NCBI GenBank assembly: GCA_016209865.1
Contig: JACQVL010000260.1
Location: forward strand, 1-6,100
Source of the DNA: Candidatus Latescibacterota bacterium
GTDB taxonomy: Bacteria > JAAXHH01 > JACQVL01
Direction of reading: 5' to 3'
Length of the DNA stretch: 6,100 bases
The notes beneath the pieces are model-generated. The model was given only the letters and a program-made list of their open reading frames with translations. It did no database searches and was not told the origin of the DNA. Made by a program: the position numbers and the translations under genes. Every line of letters starts with the position of its first letter. The stretch's first letter is position 1. Shown one piece after another: positions 1 to 6,100 of the stretch.

Positions 1-564
1 GCCGGGCGGCAGGATGCCGACGACCGTAAAAACCGTCCCGTCGAGCGTGAGCGTTTTTCCGGGCAGGCTCGGATCGCCGCCGAAGACGCGCTGCCAGAGG
101 CCGTGGCTTACGATTACGACGTGTTCCTTACCCGCCTTGCCATCTTCGGGCAGGAATGTACGTCCCCGCGCGGACGTCGCGCCCAGCATCGGGAAGAGAT
201 GGGGGGAGACGAAAAACCCGGATATCCGCTCGGCTTCGCCGGCCCCGGTCAGGGTGAGGTTCCATGACGGCGTGATCGCGGCCATCTGTTCAAACGACCG
301 GGTCTGCGCCTGCCAGTCGTTAAAGTTGGGATACGCCACCGGATCGCGGTTGACGCCCTCTTTCGTGTTGTGGCCCCAGAGCACCACCAGCCGGTCCGGG
401 TCGGCATACGGAAGCTCCCGCAGCAGCACCGCGTTGACCACGCTGAAAATCGCCGTATTCGCGCCGATGCCCAGCGCCAGCGTCAGTACCGCCACCGCCG
501 TGAAGCCGGGACTCCTGCGCAGCATCCGGACACCGTACCGCAGGTCTTGCCAGAGTGTGTCCAT
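1..564 (-). CDS. MacB/FtsX-family ABC transporter permease, ADOP-like (N-terminal part, cut by window edge)
   Basis: The first 188 residues of an inner-membrane permease are visible and the frame is still open at base 1. It begins MDTLWQDLRYGVRMLRRSPG, followed by a hydrophobic segment at about residues 21-49 with the motif LALGIGANTAIFSVVNAVLL, then LPYADPDRLV and the start of the periplasmic MacB_PCD domain (FFVSPHLFPMLG, GRTFLPED, VIVSHGLWQRVFGGD, VVGILPPG). This wording is typical of the acidobacterial duplicated orphan permease (ADOP) group and other MacB-like permeases. Full ADOP proteins are about 800 residues with a duplicated FtsX unit, so duplication cannot be tested here. The start ATG (564-562) has GGAGG at 571-575 with a 6-nt spacer. 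It lies 64 nt after the ATPase gene on the same strand, so it is probably the membrane part of one efflux complex with the ATPase and adaptor. Family is secure; substrate is unknown. Confidence 0.9.
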   Translation of the reverse strand, partial: MDTLWQDLRYGVRMLRRSPGFTAVAVLTLALGIGANTAIFSVVNAVLLRELPYADPDRLVVLWGHNTKEGVNRDPVAYPNFNDWQAQTRSFEQMAAITPSWNLTLTGAGEAERISGFFVSPHLFPMLGATSARGRTFLPEDGKAGKEHVVIVSHGLWQRVFGGDPSLPGKTLTLDGTVFTVVGILPPG

Positions 565-584: not shown

Positions 585-662
585 GTGACGAGTGAAAAAC
601 ACCTCCTGTTATGGGTTTTCTTTGCCTTTCACTCTTCACTCTTCACTCTTACCTTTTCACTC
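585..662. repeat. Class A heptamer repeats (GTGACGA/TTCACTC) as an inverted pair
   Basis: A forward block GTGACGAGTGAAAAA (585-599) faces a tandem array of TTCACTC units at 628-634, 635-641 and 642-648, with a fourth copy at 656-662. GTGACGAGTGAAA (585-597) and GTGAAGAGTGAAA (reverse complement of 627-639) match at 12 of 13 bases across a 29-nt loop, so the transcript between ATPase and permease can form a hairpin. The array overlaps the 3' end and stop codon of the ATPase gene. Seven-base tandem repeats of this style resemble the STRR repeats known from cyanobacteria. Confidence 0.8.
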
Positions 663-1339
663 TCTTCCACGATCTGTCCGTCGAACAGGTGCACGGTGCG
701 ATCCGCGTAGCGCGCAAAGCGCGGGTCGTGGGTGACCATGCAGATGGTCGCTCCACCCTGATGGAGGTCGCGCAGCAGGTCCATCACCGCTTCCCCGTTC
801 TTGGAATCTAAGTTCCCGGTCGGCTCGTCCGCTAAGAGGATGGCGGGACGGCCCGCTAAGGCTCTGGCCACGGCCACGCGCTGCTGCTGGCCGCCGGAGA
901 GCTGTGACGGATAATGCTTCATCCGGTGAGACATGCCGACCTTTTCCAGCGCCTCCTGCCCCCATTGCTTCCGCTCCGCAGCCGGCATCCCCCGGTAGGT
1001 CAGCGGCAGCTCGACGTTCTCGAAGACGGTGAGGTCGCCGATCAGGTTAAAACTCTGAAAGATGAACCCGATCTCTCGATTCCGGATACGTGCGCGGTCT
1101 GCGGGACTCAAGTTCTGCACCGGGTTGCCGTTCAGAGAATAGCTCCCCTCGGTCGGAGAATCCAGGAGGCCGAGGATGGAGAGCAGGGTCGACTTGCCAC
1201 ACCCCGACGGGCCGGCGATAGAGACATACTCTCCTTTTCGGATTTCCATGTGGATATCCGCGAGGGCGTGCGTCTCAACCTCATCGGTGAAAAACACCTT
1301 CGTCATGCCTTCGAGACGAATCAACGACTGATCGTTCAT
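629..1339 (-). CDS. ABC transporter ATP-binding protein, MacB/LolD type
   Basis: The 236-residue ATPase is expected to sit on the cytoplasmic face and power the neighbouring permease. All nucleotide-binding motifs are intact: Walker A GPSGCGKST (43-51), Q-loop Gln95 in FIFQSFNLI, signature LSGGQQQR (147-154), Walker B ILLADE (167-172) followed by PTGNLD, and H-loop His204 in MVTHD. The set GLLDSPTEG, FENVELPL, LADEPTGNLDS is typical of the LolD/MacB/FtsE group. The start at 1339 is chosen because AAGGAG (1346-1351) precedes it by 6 nt; the frame runs open to 1411, but that stretch is translated repeat (HRPPTTDHRP). The last residues (SEKVRVKSEE) are encoded by the TTCACTC repeat array, so the natural C-terminus probably lay just after GQIVEE. 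It is 113 nt downstream of the adaptor gene and 64 nt upstream of the permease, consistent with one operon. Confidence 0.95.
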   Translation of the reverse strand: MNDQSLIRLEGMTKVFFTDEVETHALADIHMEIRKGEYVSIAGPSGCGKSTLLSILGLLDSPTEGSYSLNGNPVQNLSPADRARIRNREIGFIFQSFNLIGDLTVFENVELPLTYRGMPAAERKQWGQEALEKVGMSHRMKHYPSQLSGGQQQRVAVARALAGRPAILLADEPTGNLDSKNGEAVMDLLRDLHQGGATICMVTHDPRFARYADRTVHLFDGQIVEESEKVRVKSEE

Positions 1340-1345
1340 GATGGA

Positions 1346-1452: not shown

Positions 1453-2706
1453 TTACTTTAACCGGATCCGATCCACCGCATCCCAGGCGGACATGTCCGA
1501 CAGAATCACCTGGTCGCCGACTCGTAAGCCGTCCAGAATCTCGACGGTGTTGACCGAACTGCGCCCCAGCCTGACCTGCACACGAACGGCGGTCTTGCCA
1601 TCATCTTCGAGTTTGAACAGACCGACCATCCCCTGTCCCTGTCCATAGACAGGCCGTCCAACATAGAGGATATCGGCGAGACGTTCCAGTTCAATCGTCC
1701 CATCGACGCTCTGATCGGGCCGGGCTCCTTTGGGCAGCGGGCCTTCCAGCGCGATATCCACCGTGACCGTCCCGTTCTGCGCCGCCGGGTCGATCCGTGC
1801 CACGCGACCGGGCACGAGACCGTTCCGGGTATCGATCGAAGCGTGTTGACCGATGAGAATGTCTTTGGCTTGAGTCTCCGCGACCTTGATCTCCGCCTTC
1901 AGGTGCTCCGGTTCGACCACCCGCGCCAGGTTCAGGCCAGGGGTCACCCACTGGCCGACTTCCACCGGCACCTGCTGCAGCACCCCTTCAGTCCCCGCCC
2001 GAACACGAAGGGACTCGACCTGTCGCCGTCTGAGGCCATGGAGGGTGCGGAGTTGTTCGACGTGCGCCCGTTTGGCATCGAGCTGGGCCTGGATCGCGCG
2101 GGTGTTGATCGCCAGGCGTTGCTGCTCGATCTCATACCGGGTGGTGAGTCCTTCAGCTTTCACCTTGGAGAGTTTCCGGATCAGGTCCGGGGCAAGCCCA
2201 TTCTTGGCCAGCTCCTCATCCGTCTCCGCCTGCAGGACCGCCTGGCGGTAGTCTGCCTGGATCACGGCGGCTGCGGCTTTCTGATCCAGAAGCTGAGTCT
2301 CAAGCTGCGCTTGCAGACTCTTGTACTCCGCCTCAGCCGCCTTGAGCTGCCACTCCGCATCTAAAGCGTTGAGTTCGAGTTCAGGGTTGCTCATCTCCAG
2401 CACCACCGTATCCGCTGTCACCACCGCCCCTGGCAACAGACGGATGCGCTCGACTCGCCCTTCCGTGGCCGCCGGGATCCATCGAATCTCTTCAGGCACG
2501 AGTGTTCCCACCCCGCGCACCTGGCGGAGCATCGACCCCCGTCTAACGACATCGATCATCACCGTCGCCCGCTCCACCGTCGGCGCGGCGGGCCTGAGCC
2601 GCGACAGTCCCGCCGTGATGAGGAGGATCGCACCCACACCGACGATGGTATACACAAGACGGCGAATCCGTCGCGCACGTTTGTCCACTGGGCGCTGTAT
2701 GTCCAT
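1453..2706 (-). CDS. Periplasmic adaptor (membrane fusion) protein of an efflux system, HlyD/MacA-like
   Basis: The 417-residue protein should be anchored in the inner membrane and bridge the ABC permease to an outer-membrane channel. An Arg/Lys-rich cytoplasmic start (KRARRIRR, 9-16) precedes one membrane segment (17-34, LVYTIVGVGAILLITAGL). A first lipoyl half-motif follows at about 76-106 (IPAATEGRVERIRLLPG). A long alpha-helical hairpin at about 112-232 is rich in Ala, Gln, Glu and Leu. The second lipoyl half is at about 233-262 (LRVRAGTEGVLQQVPVEVGQ), then a beta-barrel (about 266-345) and a membrane-proximal domain ending DGLRVGDQVILSDMSAWDAV. Order and length fit the family. GGAG (2713-2716) lies 6 nt before the ATG at 2706; the frame is open to 2868 but those codons are repeat DNA (FPAFARTSFAGMT, SLVTGHSSLVTD). 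It is first gene of the operon with the ATPase and permease. A sigma54-like promoter lies about 200 nt upstream. Confidence 0.93.
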   Translation of the reverse strand: MDIQRPVDKRARRIRRLVYTIVGVGAILLITAGLSRLRPAAPTVERATVMIDVVRRGSMLRQVRGVGTLVPEEIRWIPAATEGRVERIRLLPGAVVTADTVVLEMSNPELELNALDAEWQLKAAEAEYKSLQAQLETQLLDQKAAAAVIQADYRQAVLQAETDEELAKNGLAPDLIRKLSKVKAEGLTTRYEIEQQRLAINTRAIQAQLDAKRAHVEQLRTLHGLRRRQVESLRVRAGTEGVLQQVPVEVGQWVTPGLNLARVVEPEHLKAEIKVAETQAKDILIGQHASIDTRNGLVPGRVARIDPAAQNGTVTVDIALEGPLPKGARPDQSVDGTIELERLADILYVGRPVYGQGQGMVGLFKLEDDGKTAVRVQVRLGRSSVNTVEILDGLRVGDQVILSDMSAWDAVDRIRLK

Positions 2707-2712
2707 GAGAGT

Positions 2713-2716
2713 CTCC
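2713..2716 (-). promoter_or_regulatory. Ribosome binding site deciding the adaptor start
   Basis: TGGAGA context (GGAG core) 6 nt before the ATG at 2706. It favours MDIQRP as the N-terminus, which places the basic patch and membrane helix at the usual distance from the start. Confidence 0.65.
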
Positions 2717-2740
2717 ACAAGATGATGGCCGGTGAAATCA

Positions 2741-2912
2741 GTGACAAGTGACGAGTGACCAGTGACGAGTGAAAGACGGTTCTCTTGGGTCATTCCCGCG
2801 AAACTTGTCCTCGCGAAAGCGGGGAACGGGGAGCAGGGACGGGAATGACACCAGATGTTTCTCGTCACTCGTCACTGGTCACTCGTCACCGATTTTACCG
2901 ATCACCGATAGA
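2741..2912. repeat. Composite repeat cassette: 25-bp inverted class A arms around a REP-like palindrome
   Basis: GTGACNA heptamers at 2741-2772 are mirrored by TCACTCGTCACTGGTCACTC-type heptamers at 2861-2889. Bases 2748-2772 and 2865-2889 are perfect reverse complements over 25 bp with a 92-nt spacer. The spacer contains a smaller REP-like inverted repeat. Class B-like ACCGAT heptamers (2889-2912) follow on the right. The whole block lies inside the leader expected from the leftward sigma54-like promoter, so in RNA it could form one long branched hairpin ahead of the adaptor gene. Confidence 0.85.
2789..2849. repeat. REP-like palindromic element (GTCATTCCCG...CGGGAATGAC)
   Basis: Perfect 10-bp terminal inverted repeats at 2789-2798 and 2840-2849 enclose a 41-nt core with CGCGAAA and CTCGCGAAAGCGGGGA. 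Translated, it gives FPAFARTSFAGMT, a form of the FPAFAGMT/FPRKRES string that marks a widespread bacterial intergenic repeat. A shorter relative is at 5024-5043. Confidence 0.75.
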
Positions 2913-2917
2913 GATGG

Positions 2918-2933
2918 GGCAAGAGGTGTGCCA
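2918..2933 (-). promoter_or_regulatory. Candidate sigma54 (-24/-12) promoter for the efflux operon
   Basis: On the minus strand TGGCACACCTCTTGCC matches TGGCACG-N4-TTGCW with only two differences, both at less constrained positions; the GG and GC doublets have the correct spacing. Transcription would begin near 2907, giving a leader of about 200 nt that includes the inverted-repeat cassette. A weak sigma70-type alternative overlaps it (TTGCCC at 2917-2922, TAAAAT at 2892-2897), but its 19-nt spacer is too long. Confidence 0.6.
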
Positions 2934-2958
2934 TCGGAACCATGCTTCCTAAGTAGCT

Positions 2959-2971
2959 GAAAAATTTGATC
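2959..2971 (-). promoter_or_regulatory. Possible IHF-like site
   Basis: Minus-strand GATCAAATTTTTC agrees with the ATCAA-N4-TT core of the IHF consensus WATCAANNNNTTR and lies in a short AT-rich patch between the GTCCC array and the leftward sigma54-like promoter, where a bending protein is often needed. The first and last consensus positions do not match, so this is weak. Confidence 0.25.
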
Positions 2972-2997
2972 TGAACGAATCGATCACGGATCAGGGC

Positions 2998-3036
2998 TGT
3001 CCCTCATGTGTCCGCTTTTGGGACGACCGTGTCCCA
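2998..3036. promoter_or_regulatory. Phased GTCCC/GGGAC half-site array, candidate shared enhancer
   Basis: TGTCCC (2998), TGTCC (3009), GGGAC (3020) and GTCCC (3031) start 11 bp apart, so they fall on about the same face of the helix. The last two form a dyad TGGGAC-6 nt-GTCCCA (3019-3036), and the middle two form GTCC-7 nt-GGAC. The array lies 65 bp from the leftward and 35 bp from the rightward -24 element. Position and dyad form suit binding by an NtrC-type activator; the protein is not encoded in this window. Confidence 0.5.
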
Positions 3037-3070
3037 CAACCGATCACTGATGACCCGGCTGCATGCTTTT

Positions 3071-3086
3071 TGGCACGTGGTTTGCT
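3071..3086 (+). promoter_or_regulatory. Sigma54 (-24/-12) promoter upstream of the response regulator
   Basis: TGGCACGTGGTTTGCT is a full match to TGGCACG-N4-TTGCW, preceded by a T run. The start of transcription is expected near 3097, leaving a 47-nt leader before the ATG at 3144. Such promoters need RpoN and an AAA+ enhancer-binding protein. Confidence 0.8.
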
Positions 3087-3143
3087 AGGGTTTACGAATA
3101 GGATCGATCACCTCGATGAGGAGCATCCCAGGAGGAGGCGTTT

Positions 3144-3572
3144 ATGATGGCTACGCATTCGAACCATACGGTGTGCTCAGAGCGCGCTGACCCACCCCTC
3201 ACCTCAGCCCCCCGTCTCCTGATCGCGGATGATGATGCCGTCCTCAGAGTCTCGCTCGGCAAGATCTACACGAAAGCCGGGTATGAGGTTGTCTTAGCTG
3301 CGGACGGTGAAGAAGCCATCCAGCTCGCGCGGACTCAACCGTTCGACCTGGCCCTGATCGATTTAAGCATGCCGAAGTATAACGGGCTTGAGGTCTTGAA
3401 AGCGATGAAACGGTTTGCGCCGCGGATGCCAGTCATCATCCTCACCGCGTTCGGGGCGTGGGATACCTACGCGGAGGCGCTGGAAGCGGGCGTGTACCAG
3501 TACGTCTCGAAGCCCATCCGGCAGGATGAGTTGTTGTTGTTGGCCAGGAACGCCCTGGAGAGCGCTCATTAG
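3144..3572 (+). CDS. Stand-alone response regulator receiver protein (CheY-like, no output domain)
   Basis: The 142-residue protein has a flexible N-terminal stretch of about 23 residues and then one receiver domain (about 24-142). The phosphorylation site is complete: acidic pair Asp29/Asp30 in LLIADDD, phospho-acceptor Asp73 in LIDLSMP, Thr101 in ILTAFG, Tyr120 and Lys123 in YVSKP. No DNA-binding or enzymatic domain follows, so it should relay phosphate or act by protein contact. The WDTYAEALEAG-YVSKPI wording resembles receivers of NtrC-type regulators, an impression not tested by alignment. GGAGGAGG (3131-3138) precedes the ATG at 3144 by 5 nt; a second ATG follows directly, so either may serve. 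A perfect sigma54 promoter lies upstream. No histidine kinase is in the window, and the gene is divergent from the efflux operon. Confidence 0.93.
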   Translation: MMATHSNHTVCSERADPPLTSAPRLLIADDDAVLRVSLGKIYTKAGYEVVLAADGEEAIQLARTQPFDLALIDLSMPKYNGLEVLKAMKRFAPRMPVIILTAFGAWDTYAEALEAGVYQYVSKPIRQDELLLLARNALESAH

Positions 3573-3613
3573 TTCACCGCCTGGCTTCACAGCGAAAGGT
3601 GGGGAGCGAAGCC

Positions 3614-3642
3614 GAGCCGGTGTGTGTTTGTCCCACCGGCTC
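3614..3642 (+). terminator. Stem-loop between response regulator and oxidoreductase genes
   Basis: GAGCCGGTG (3614-3622) and CACCGGCTC (3634-3642) form a perfect 9-bp stem with an 11-nt loop. The following ATGTTATTTGG is only moderately T-rich, so this may be a weak or partial terminator, or a processing/attenuation hairpin that lowers expression of the oxidoreductase relative to the regulator. Confidence 0.45.
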
Positions 3643-3668
3643 ATGTTATTTGGTGAGGAGGAGCGACG

Positions 3669-4844
3669 ATGATCGAACAGGCGGATGTCGTCATCATCGG
3701 GGGGGGAGTCAACGGCGCGAGCATCGCTTACCACCTGGCGGCCCGACAGTACGGAACGATCGTGCTCGTCGAGAAGAGCGGGCTGGCTGACGGGTCATCC
3801 GGGAAATCCGGGGGGATCATCCGGCAGCACTACTCCAACCCGGCGCTGATTCGGATGGCCATCGAAAGCCGGCGGTTCTTCGAACGGTTCGACGCTGAGG
3901 TCGATGGTCACGCGGGGTTTGTGCAGAATGGGTTTCTCATCGTCGTGGCCGAGAAGGAAACAGCGGCTCTGAAAGCCAACGTCACCCTTCAGCGAGAGCT
4001 GGGGCTGGACGTGGAACTGGTCGCGCCGGCTCAGGTTGGAACGATCCTGCCGGGCATCAATACTGACGGAGTGGCGCTGGCCGCGTACGAGCGGAGCGCG
4101 GGATACGCCGACCCCTACGGCGTCGTCACTGCCTTCGCACAACGAGCCAAACAATCAGGGGTAACGATCCACATCGGGCGGCAGGTCACGGGGATTCACG
4201 TCCAGGACGGCGCGGTCCGCGGGGTCGAGACGAACCTCGGCCTGATCCGGACGCCGCTCGTCGTCAACGCGGCCGGCCCGTGGGGACGGCACATCGCCCG
4301 CATGGTCGGGATCGACCTGCCCCTGACGGTCAAGCGTCTGCAGGAACTCGTCGTCAAGCCGCCCACGGCCTACTCGAAGATGAACCCGACGGTGATCGAC
4401 CTCTGTCACCTCGTGTACTTCCGGCCGGAGCCTGGCGGGTTGGTGCTGGCCGGGGGGGGCATCACGGACGACCCGGAGCCGGTCGACCCGGATCGCTACA
4501 AGGGGGCTGATTTCGAGACCCTGTCCGATGTCTCCGAACGATTGACCCGGCGGATGCCAGGGCTGGCGGATGCGGAACTCATCCGGGGATGGGCGGGGGT
4601 GATTACCGTAACCCCCGACTTCCACCCCATCCTCGGCGAAGCCCCGGAAGTCCAGGGGTTCATCCATGCGATGAGCTGCAGCGGCCACGGGTTCAAGCTG
4701 GCCCCCATCGTCGGACGGCTGATCGCCGAACTCATCGTCGATGGGCACACGACCACGCTCGACATCACGCCGCTGCGTCCGGATCGGTTCCAGCAGGGAC
4801 GCGCGTTGAGGTCGCGGTACGAGGATTTCCCCATCCTCGCATAA
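3669..4844 (+). CDS. FAD-dependent oxidoreductase, DAO family (sarcosine/glycine oxidase-like)
   Basis: The 391-residue protein should oxidise a secondary or primary amine such as an N-methyl amino acid, or a related amino acid, with FAD; the substrate cannot be read from sequence. The N-terminal dinucleotide fold is clear: DVVIIGGGVNGASIAYHL (6-23) with GGGVNG at 11-16 and Glu35 ending the second strand. GSSGKSGGIIRQHYS (42-56), NAAGPW (200-205), TPDFHPILG (315-323) and SGHGFKLAP (338-346) are the family's FAD- and active-site blocks, and the length is typical. Compared from memory with monomeric sarcosine oxidase, its covalent Cys falls at Gly310 here, so FAD is probably bound non-covalently. 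GAGGAGGAG (3655-3663) lies 5 nt before the ATG. It follows the response regulator by 96 nt and may be cotranscribed with it, although a stem-loop intervenes. No signal peptide is seen, so it is probably cytoplasmic. Confidence 0.9.
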   Translation: MIEQADVVIIGGGVNGASIAYHLAARQYGTIVLVEKSGLADGSSGKSGGIIRQHYSNPALIRMAIESRRFFERFDAEVDGHAGFVQNGFLIVVAEKETAALKANVTLQRELGLDVELVAPAQVGTILPGINTDGVALAAYERSAGYADPYGVVTAFAQRAKQSGVTIHIGRQVTGIHVQDGAVRGVETNLGLIRTPLVVNAAGPWGRHIARMVGIDLPLTVKRLQELVVKPPTAYSKMNPTVIDLCHLVYFRPEPGGLVLAGGGITDDPEPVDPDRYKGADFETLSDVSERLTRRMPGLADAELIRGWAGVITVTPDFHPILGEAPEVQGFIHAMSCSGHGFKLAPIVGRLIAELIVDGHTTTLDITPLRPDRFQQGRALRSRYEDFPILA

Positions 4845-4908: not shown

Positions 4909-4975
4909 TCCGGTATTAAATCGGTGGTCGGTGGTCGGGAGTCGGTAACAATCAGTGACGAGTGACGAGTGTGTA

Positions 4976-5020
4976 ACCCCCCTCCGTGTCCCCCCGCATG
5001 CGGGGGGACGATAGGGGGGT
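4976..5020. terminator. Large GC hairpin between convergent genes (possible bidirectional terminator)
   Basis: Bases 4988-5009 are a perfect 22-bp palindrome (GTCCCCCCGCA and its complement with no loop). Outside it ACCCCCCT (4976-4983) pairs with AGGGGGGT (5013-5020), separated from the inner stem by a 4/3-nt internal bulge. The stem is very stable in either transcript. There is no T tract, so an intrinsic terminator is unproven; it may instead be a core part of the repeat cassette. Confidence 0.5.
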
Positions 5021-5023
5021 GTC

Positions 5024-5043
5024 ATTCCCGCGCAAGCGGGAAT
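5024..5043. repeat. Short REP-like palindrome (ATTCCCGC-GCAA-GCGGGAAT)
   Basis: A perfect 8-bp stem with a GCAA loop. With flanks it translates to FPRKRESI on the plus strand, the hallmark of a widespread bacterial intergenic palindrome. It is the compact relative of the 61-bp element at 2789-2849. Confidence 0.75.
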
Positions 5044-5089
5044 CCATATCTGCTCTTACCGACCACCGACCACTGATCACCGACCATCG

Positions 5090-6100
5090 TCACTTCACCA
5101 ACGTCATCCGCCGCGTCTGGCTGAACCCGGCGCTCGTCGTCAGGCGGTACAGATACACCCCGCTGGCCACGTTCATCCCGTGCCCATTTCGACCGTCCCA
5201 CGTCACCATATACCGCCCCGGCGGCTGCACCGTCTCGACCAGCCGGACGACTTCCTGGCCTAACAGGTTGTACACCGCCAGCATGATGTGCGCCGCCTGT
5301 GGCACATCGTAGGCGATCTGCGTCGCCGGGTTGAACGGGTTCGGCCGGTTGGGCTTCAACGCAAACGCGGTCGGGAGCGGCTGGACCTTGACCGTGCTCG
5401 TCCCCAGCCCCACCGGAATCGCCTGCGCCCCCCGGTTGGCCAACAGCACCTGCGACAGGGTCAGGGTGGGGGCGGCCTCAGGTCCGCTCCGCACGGTGAC
5501 GGGCACCAGCAGGGTCGTCCCGTGACCCGCCGGGATGGCCTGGCCGGTCGGACTGTAGATGAGCACCTGCAATCGCCCGGCCGTCACGTGACTCTGGAGC
5601 GTCATCCCCTCCGCCCGGCCGGCGAGCTGAGGCAGACCGGGCTCGAGCTGTGAGGGATCGAACGTGAAGGCGGCCTGCATTCCGGCGACGACACCGTCCG
5701 CGCTCATCGTCACCGGGATGGCCAGTTGACCGGATGCCACAGTCTGGAGATCGCCCAGACTCACCGTGACCGGACTCGTCGGTCCGTCCGCCAGTACTTT
5801 CGCCGGACTACTGTGGAGGACGGCGTTGATCATCCAGACGATGTCCAGGATGTTGATCGCCCCATCCCCGTTCGGGTCGGCTAAGAAGCGCTTGAACCCG
5901 AACGGCTCTGGCAGGGCTCCGAGGACGTACTTGATCTCCTGAATCAGGTCGAGGATATTGATATCCCCGGTGGCGTTGAGGTCGCCGCGTCTGCCGACAT
6001 GAATCGAGCCGGGCTGGACCCCCGGATGGATCGGCTGGCTGTCCGGGTCGGAGAGGAGGGCATTCGTCACGGCCATCATGATCCAATCCCCGAACGGAGC
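5090..6100 (-). CDS. Secreted dockerin/cohesin-like protein with C-terminal FlgD-like/T9SS type A sorting domain (C-terminal part)
   Basis: The frame is open at base 6100, so only the last 336 residues are seen; Met codons at 6079 and 6076 lack a convincing SD and are likely internal. Numbering from the first visible residue, two dockerin-like calcium loops occur: D40-L-N-A-T-G-D-I-N-I-L-D51, where Thr replaces the usual Asp at loop position 5, and D75-P-N-G-D-G-A-I-N-I-L-D86, which is canonical. A beta-rich domain resembling cohesins follows (about 109-240: GMQAAFTFDPSQLEP, IPAGHGTTLLVPVTV). The end (about 250-336) has NRPNPFNPATQIAYDVP, VYNLLGQEVVRL, GRYMVTWDGRN and ASGVYLYRL, the FlgD Ig-like/T9SS type A sorting signature used for export and surface attachment in Bacteroidota and related phyla. 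Catalytic or binding modules probably lie upstream outside the window. It is convergent with the oxidoreductase gene; no functional link is evident. Confidence 0.88.
   Translation of the reverse strand, partial: APFGDWIMMAVTNALLSDPDSQPIHPGVQPGSIHVGRRGDLNATGDINILDLIQEIKYVLGALPEPFGFKRFLADPNGDGAINILDIVWMINAVLHSSPAKVLADGPTSPVTVSLGDLQTVASGQLAIPVTMSADGVVAGMQAAFTFDPSQLEPGLPQLAGRAEGMTLQSHVTAGRLQVLIYSPTGQAIPAGHGTTLLVPVTVRSGPEAAPTLTLSQVLLANRGAQAIPVGLGTSTVKVQPLPTAFALKPNRPNPFNPATQIAYDVPQAAHIMLAVYNLLGQEVVRLVETVQPPGRYMVTWDGRNGHGMNVASGVYLYRLTTSAGFSQTRRMTLVK

Follow-up and report, generated by a model that had tools for sequence, protein, structure and literature searches.

The gap between an exporter operon and a divergently oriented receiver gene in a Candidatus Latescibacterota genome quite probably contains a promoter and an enhancer that belong to an ancient sigma54 (RpoN) regulon for MacA/ADOP-type exporters, which would operate through a two-component activator in the manner proposed below. 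Comparison with the corresponding sequences of other genomes brought out the promoter, the enhancer, the spacing between them, the genomic linkage to an activator gene and the presence of additional targets. The strong part of this result is the exporter side, with its enhancer, spacing and probable activator; a bidirectional switch that also serves the receiver gene is a reasonable but unproven extension of it.

Locus and gene content

The window, that is, the whole stretch of 6100 bp that was analyzed, is a complete contig (G000:C220) of a 3.75 Mb assembly that is 83% complete and consists of 356 pieces. Genome-wide work in this source genome was performed through pattern and protein searches. 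As the sequence-only reading had anticipated, the genome contains rpoN, in one copy (PF04552, E=3.4e-61), and it encodes 14 sigma54 activators. The leftward operon consists of genes for a periplasmic adaptor, an ABC ATPase and a permease (Table 1), the last of which matches positions 1-183 of the 803 positions of TIGR03434 with 247 bits, the gene being truncated at the contig end. The combination of an adaptor, a MacB/DarD-type ATPase and an FtsX-like permease is shared with the darobactin exporter DarBCD and with MacAB; unlike in DarBCD, however, the permease is of the ADOP type, and the adaptor and the ATPase fall below the DarC and DarD equivalog cut-offs (55 of 450 bits and 260 of 375 bits, respectively). 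On the other side of the gap, the receiver gene is followed by a gene for an FAD-dependent oxidoreductase that is possibly co-transcribed with it.

The remainder of the window contains, at 5090-6079 on the minus strand, a gene for a protein with dockerin type I and FlgD-like C-terminal domains, a type known from secreted proteins. Short heptamer-like repeat arrays, of the CACTCGT and GTCGGTG types, are present in all intergenic gaps of the window (590-660, 1355-1440, 2735-2905 and 4920-5090), and REP-like GTCATTCCCGCG elements likewise occur in every one of them. The end of the window (5958-6100) and the terminal 143 bp of contig C354 (L080, 5707-5849) form an end-to-end match at 95.8%, and the two contigs may be neighbours. 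Contig C354 has genes for a PAS sensor kinase and for a receiver that is 54% identical to the receiver of the window; if it adjoins the window contig, this kinase and receiver would be located about 6 kb away.

Table 1. Coordinates of the genes and candidate regulatory elements in the 6100 bp window
Feature	Position	Strand	Remarks
ADOP-type duplicated permease (TIGR03434, MacB_PCD)	1..564	-	cut by contig end
ABC ATPase, MacB/DarD/LolD type	629..1342	-	
Periplasmic adaptor (HlyD_D23/HlyD_3, MacA/DarC-like)	1453..2706	-	N-terminus MDIxRP conserved in orthologs
Dispersed genomic repeats between left promoter and adaptor start	2735..2905	.	77 matches of stretch 2735-2912 in source genome
Left sigma54 -24/-12 promoter, facing exporter operon, TGGCACACCTCTTGCC, 14/16	2918..2933	-	position conserved in adaptor orthologs
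Extra GTCCC half-site	2999..3003	+	without conserved counterpart in orthologs
Core enhancer dyad GTCC-N7-GGAC, centre 3017	3008..3024	-	CGTCCCAAAAGCGGACAC on minus strand (3025-3008)
Second, weaker candidate activator site, TCCCACAACCGATCAC, score 15.0	3031..3047	+	GTCCC half 3031-3035, conserved register 21 bp from core
Right sigma54 -24/-12 promoter, facing receiver gene, TGGCACGTGGTTTGCT, 16/16	3071..3086	+	start predicted near 3097
Stand-alone response-regulator receiver, 142 aa, without output domain	3144..3572	+	ribosome site AGGAGG just upstream
FAD-dependent oxidoreductase (DAO family)	3669..4844	+	

Enhancer and promoter on the exporter side

The GTCC/GGAC array occupies 2999-3035, between the left and right -24/-12 elements, and comprises the half-sites GTCCC (2999-3003), GTCCG (3010-3014), GGGAC (3020-3024) and GTCCC (3031-3035). 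Their centre-to-centre steps are 11, 10 and 11, so that the uniform 11 bp step described from the sequence alone was nearly right, and the gaps of 35 and 65 bp reported from the array to the two -24 elements proved correct. In 4000 dinucleotide-preserving shuffles of 2707-3143, neither a phased array of four half-sites nor an enhancer score of at least 24 was ever reached. The array is better read as a strong dyad, GTCC-N7-GGAC (3010-3024), accompanied by one half-site at 3031-3035 and an extra one at 2999-3003. The core dyad is separated from the left -24 element by 74 bp and from the right one by 46 bp, and the single exact match to CGTCCCAAAANCGGACAC in the source genome is the dyad of the window.

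A search with an adaptor alignment retrieved 80 orthologs, mostly from Acidobacteriota and Verrucomicrobia, with a few from Lysobacterales and one from a Latescibacterota genome (L136, the same locus as that of genome G001). A motif matrix was trained on the upstream regions of these orthologs, 76 of which were usable, with the window left out. It converged on TCCCAnAAnCGGACAC, which is the same dyad as that on the minus strand of the window at 3023-3008 (TCCCAAAAGCGGACAC). With this matrix, the window scores 24.1, and the runner-up among 156 kb of the source genome reaches 15.9. The dyad (score of at least 17) is present in 42 of the 76 adaptor upstream regions, and in 29 of these 42, a -24/-12 element matching at 13 or more of 16 positions is found downstream of it, compared to about 3% of shuffles. 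The gaps between the enhancer and the -24 element are concentrated at 70-76 bp, with a mode of 73, close to the 74 bp of the left promoter. Conservation extends in part to a half-site located 21 bp beyond the core on its upstream side, with which the GTCCC at 3031-3035 of the window is in register. The left promoter is thus accompanied by the arrangement by which such enhancers are recognized, namely, dyad half-sites one turn apart at a fixed distance from the -24/-12 element. Judged by these comparisons, the TCCCAAAAGCGGACAC core is an ancient enhancer that belongs to the exporter and is conserved over several phyla, and the switch very likely activates the export pump via RpoN.

The left element, which had been described as near-perfect, is where it was placed and retains both the GG and the GC doublet, but it matches at 14 of 16 positions; matches of at least this quality appear in 13 of the 4000 shuffles. 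Genome-wide, one-mismatch sigma54 matches are at background (34 versus 33 for the reversed control). Because such matches are no commoner than expected by chance, the case for the left promoter is made by its conserved position and not by its score. The distance from the -24 element to the adaptor start is about 227 bp, compared to near 38 bp in many orthologs; the leader is about 200 nt long here because dispersed repeats separate the left promoter from the start of the adaptor gene. This repeat-bearing leader could alter adaptor expression.

Probable activator and wider regulon

Next to the adaptor gene, about 20 of the 80 loci carry a gene for a receiver-AAA+-Fis protein that has GAFTDA in place of GAFTGA and a recognition helix of the form LGLSRSA[LFM]YRR. 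Among the adaptor-ortholog genomes, 30 were searched for orthologs of this protein, which are 64-75% identical and usually single; they were found in 21 of the 23 enhancer-positive genomes versus 3 of the 7 enhancer-negative ones (Fisher p = 0.016). The G001 genome combines the enhancer with a GAFTDA activator encoded beside an NtrY-like kinase. The cognate activator is probably the receiver-AAA+-Fis protein with the GAFTDA loop that is seen in these other genomes. The expectation that an NtrC-type activator gene would be located near such arrays was borne out in other genomes but not in the 83% complete source assembly, where searches with the full protein and with the helix-turn-helix alone did not find a match: the matching helix-turn-helix was found in none of the 14 activators of this genome, two of whose genes are cut before that helix. 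One activator of the source genome, encoded on contig C9, was considered as the cognate protein given its GAFTDA loop and rejected given its unrelated helix.

The probable activator has the receiver-AAA+-Fis architecture of the receiver-bearing members of the NtrC family, such as ZraR, AtoC and NtrC, and the candidate sites resemble those of the family in that the dyad half-sites are about one turn apart and lie about 100 bp ahead of the start. Unlike ZraR, AtoC and NtrC, it contains GAFTDA rather than GAFTGA and is paired with the recognition sequence GTCC-N7-GGAC, and it scores far below every cut-off of the named NCBIfam families shown. GAFTDA is a known functional variant, described in DVU2106 of Desulfovibrio (PMC4641369).

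We infer the following mechanism, including its signal, the binding, the looping and the use of the enhancer by the right promoter. The two-component activator would consist of a receiver, an AAA+ domain with the GAFTDA loop and a Fis-type helix-turn-helix ending in LGLSRSA-YRR, and a sensor kinase is encoded next to it in the sister genome. The sites bound by the activator would be the GTCC-N7-GGAC dyad at 3010-3024 and the weaker half-site at 3031; by looping of the DNA, it would open the RNA polymerase-sigma54 complex at 2918-2933, so that the adaptor, ATPase and permease would be switched on. The perfect promoter at 3071-3086 would drive the lone receiver protein and may use the same enhancer in the source genome.

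The enhancer appears to extend beyond the adaptor operon. In 8 genomes, the motif TCCCRNWWNCGRACAV occurs 62 times versus 12 times for the reversed pattern. Sites followed by a good -24/-12 element precede genes for ADOP or other FtsX-like permeases in three genomes (G001, G104 and G115), as well as an ABC ATPase gene in G111 and the activator gene in G013. A count of ADOP upstream regions was restricted to the 70 regions from G115 and G104, which have large ADOP families, and nine regions from other genomes, some of them picked for a nearby motif, were left out; 10 of the 70 score at least 14, compared to none of the shuffled controls. As this site is also found ahead of other ADOP permease genes, the enhancer marks a regulon. 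Outside the main class, distances from the dyad centre to the -24 element tend to differ from 83 bp by whole helical turns (14 values; turn of 10.5 bp; Rayleigh p of about 0.02). In G115, an enhancer site is located about 98 bp before the activator gene, and G013 contains a broken GAFTDA activator gene and a second gene start preceded by the enhancer. The other activator genes checked carry no enhancer-like site just upstream, and because only those of G115 and G013 do, general autoregulation of the activator is not claimed.

These observations provide a concrete sequence rule, composed of enhancer, spacing and activator, for a sigma54 export regulon of some very common uncultured soil bacteria, such that members of the regulon become predictable from genome sequence, and they suggest which ATPase and adaptor serve permeases that are annotated as orphans. 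A broader and distinctly more tentative proposal, which we consider rather unlikely in its entirety, is that, across several phyla, one enhancer and one dedicated GAFTDA activator wire the adaptor-ATPase operon to dispersed orphan ADOP permeases sharing one adaptor and one ATPase. In the present genome, the same enhancer would also have captured the lone receiver through the divergent sigma54 promoter, which would provide the regulon with feedback or cross-talk.

For ABC-type antimicrobial-peptide permeases (COG0577/COG1136), control by sigma54 has been predicted with promoter matrices in a 2025 survey, in which the enrichment for FtsX-like ABC permeases was called first evidence; a term search showed that neither upstream activating sites nor Acidobacteria are mentioned in it (PMC12316311). 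The systems of that survey, including those from Opitutia and gamma-Proteobacteria, resemble the present one in having sigma54 promoters before genes for FtsX/MacB-type permeases and ATPases. The difference is that the present analysis identifies an enhancer, a spacing rule and a probable activator and connects the adaptor operon with ADOP permeases. A 2011 survey of sigma54 contains no mention of efflux, HlyD or MacB (PMC3162934). In the literature searched, which was that available without subscription, we found no paper on ADOP regulation and no prior report of the GTCC enhancer or its activator, and priority is not certain.

Receiver promoter and possible sharing of the enhancer

The right -24/-12 element, located 58 bp ahead of the receiver ATG, is perfect, as the sequence-only reading had noted. 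It is one of 7 perfect TGGCACGNNNNTTGCW matches in the 3.75 Mb genome, for which base composition predicts about 1.06 (P = 1e-4), and a perfect right element arises in 0 of the 4000 shuffles. Because perfect matches exceed expectation, the right promoter is supported by its score in its own right and by its location ahead of an ATG preceded by an AGGAGG box. The likely ortholog of the receiver in G001, which belongs to a sister family of the same order, has a 15/16 -24/-12 element upstream (L095:1219); this protein is 45% identical to the window receiver, which is its better match in the source genome, rather than the paralog on C354.

A precedent is provided by the E. coli hyc/hyp intergenic region, in which FhlA sites lie between divergent sigma54 operons and sharing has been studied experimentally. 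The genes and the activator are unrelated to those of the window, where sharing is a proposal. The chance that the right promoter draws on the same enhancer in the source genome seems about even. Pointing toward sharing are the excellent right promoter, the near symmetry of the dyad and the use of shorter gaps in the regulon, where distances of 30-62 bp between the enhancer and the -24 element occur.

The main competing explanation, to which we assign somewhat less than an even chance, departs from the preferred one in the right half only: two independent sigma54 promoters would share the gap by an accident of gene order, with the dyad serving the exporter alone and the receiver gene under another activator. 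In agreement with this, the receiver gene of G001 is located apart from the exporter and is preceded not by a GTCC dyad but by candidate upstream sites of another type, TGACA-N3-TGTCA, and divergent sigma54 promoters around a GTCC dyad were found at no other locus examined, so that a conserved relation between the dyad and the right promoter was not observed. The receiver gene was not seen beside the adaptor orthologs of other genomes. In addition, the distance from the dyad centre to the -24 element is 84 bp for the left promoter and 54 bp for the right one, the latter being about 2.5 bp off the usual phase. Against independence, no other convincing upstream site, TGACA-type dyads included, was seen in the gap between 2934 and 3070, only GATCA-type words recurring there, short gaps of the kind given above do occur in the regulon, and the extra half-site at 2999 would be left without explanation. 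One locus, L204, was considered as a precedent for divergent sharing and dropped, given that its reverse -24/-12 element falls within the coding region of the activator.

The conservation expected in relatives was found for the left promoter and the array, which are kept as a unit with the same spacing, but not for the divergent pair. From the initial proposal of one enhancer for an RpoN-dependent bidirectional switch, there stand a left promoter conserved with the array and a statistically strong right promoter, with sharing being the inferred part.

It is very improbable that the GTCCC array is the site of an ordinary repressor or of a two-component regulator of another family, with no relation to sigma54. 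Dyads one helical turn apart would suit many helix-turn-helix regulators, and the source genome yielded no matching activator, but the 70-76 bp spacing to the -24/-12 element is fixed across phyla, the array is linked to and co-occurs with a sigma54 activator, and 2700-3700 yielded no sigma70-type promoter. That the whole pattern is due to chance in a GC-rich gap is most improbable: although one-mismatch sigma54-like matches are at background rate in the source genome, the shuffles yielded no phased array, no perfect promoter and no enhancer score as high as that of the window, and the conservation across phyla already refutes this reading for the left half.

Several additional sigma54-like elements were observed. 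TGACA-N3-TGTCA dyads recur upstream of such elements in the source genome and G001 (L095, around 1075-1135; L062, L067 and L078) and are probably the site of a second activator. On G000:C134 of the source genome, two further strong -24/-12 elements are divergently oriented with 21 bp between them, at 10485-10500 (minus strand) and 10522-10537 (plus strand) (L053/L070), and adjoin genes for a kinase and an NtrC-type activator. Finally, perfect -24/-12 elements on contigs C9 and C162 (L050, 118-133, and L054, 1501-1516) precede the nearly identical sequence GTTGAGTCCAACGGCCACGGCCAGTGGCACGGGG, apparently as parts of a repeated element that has a sigma54 promoter of its own.
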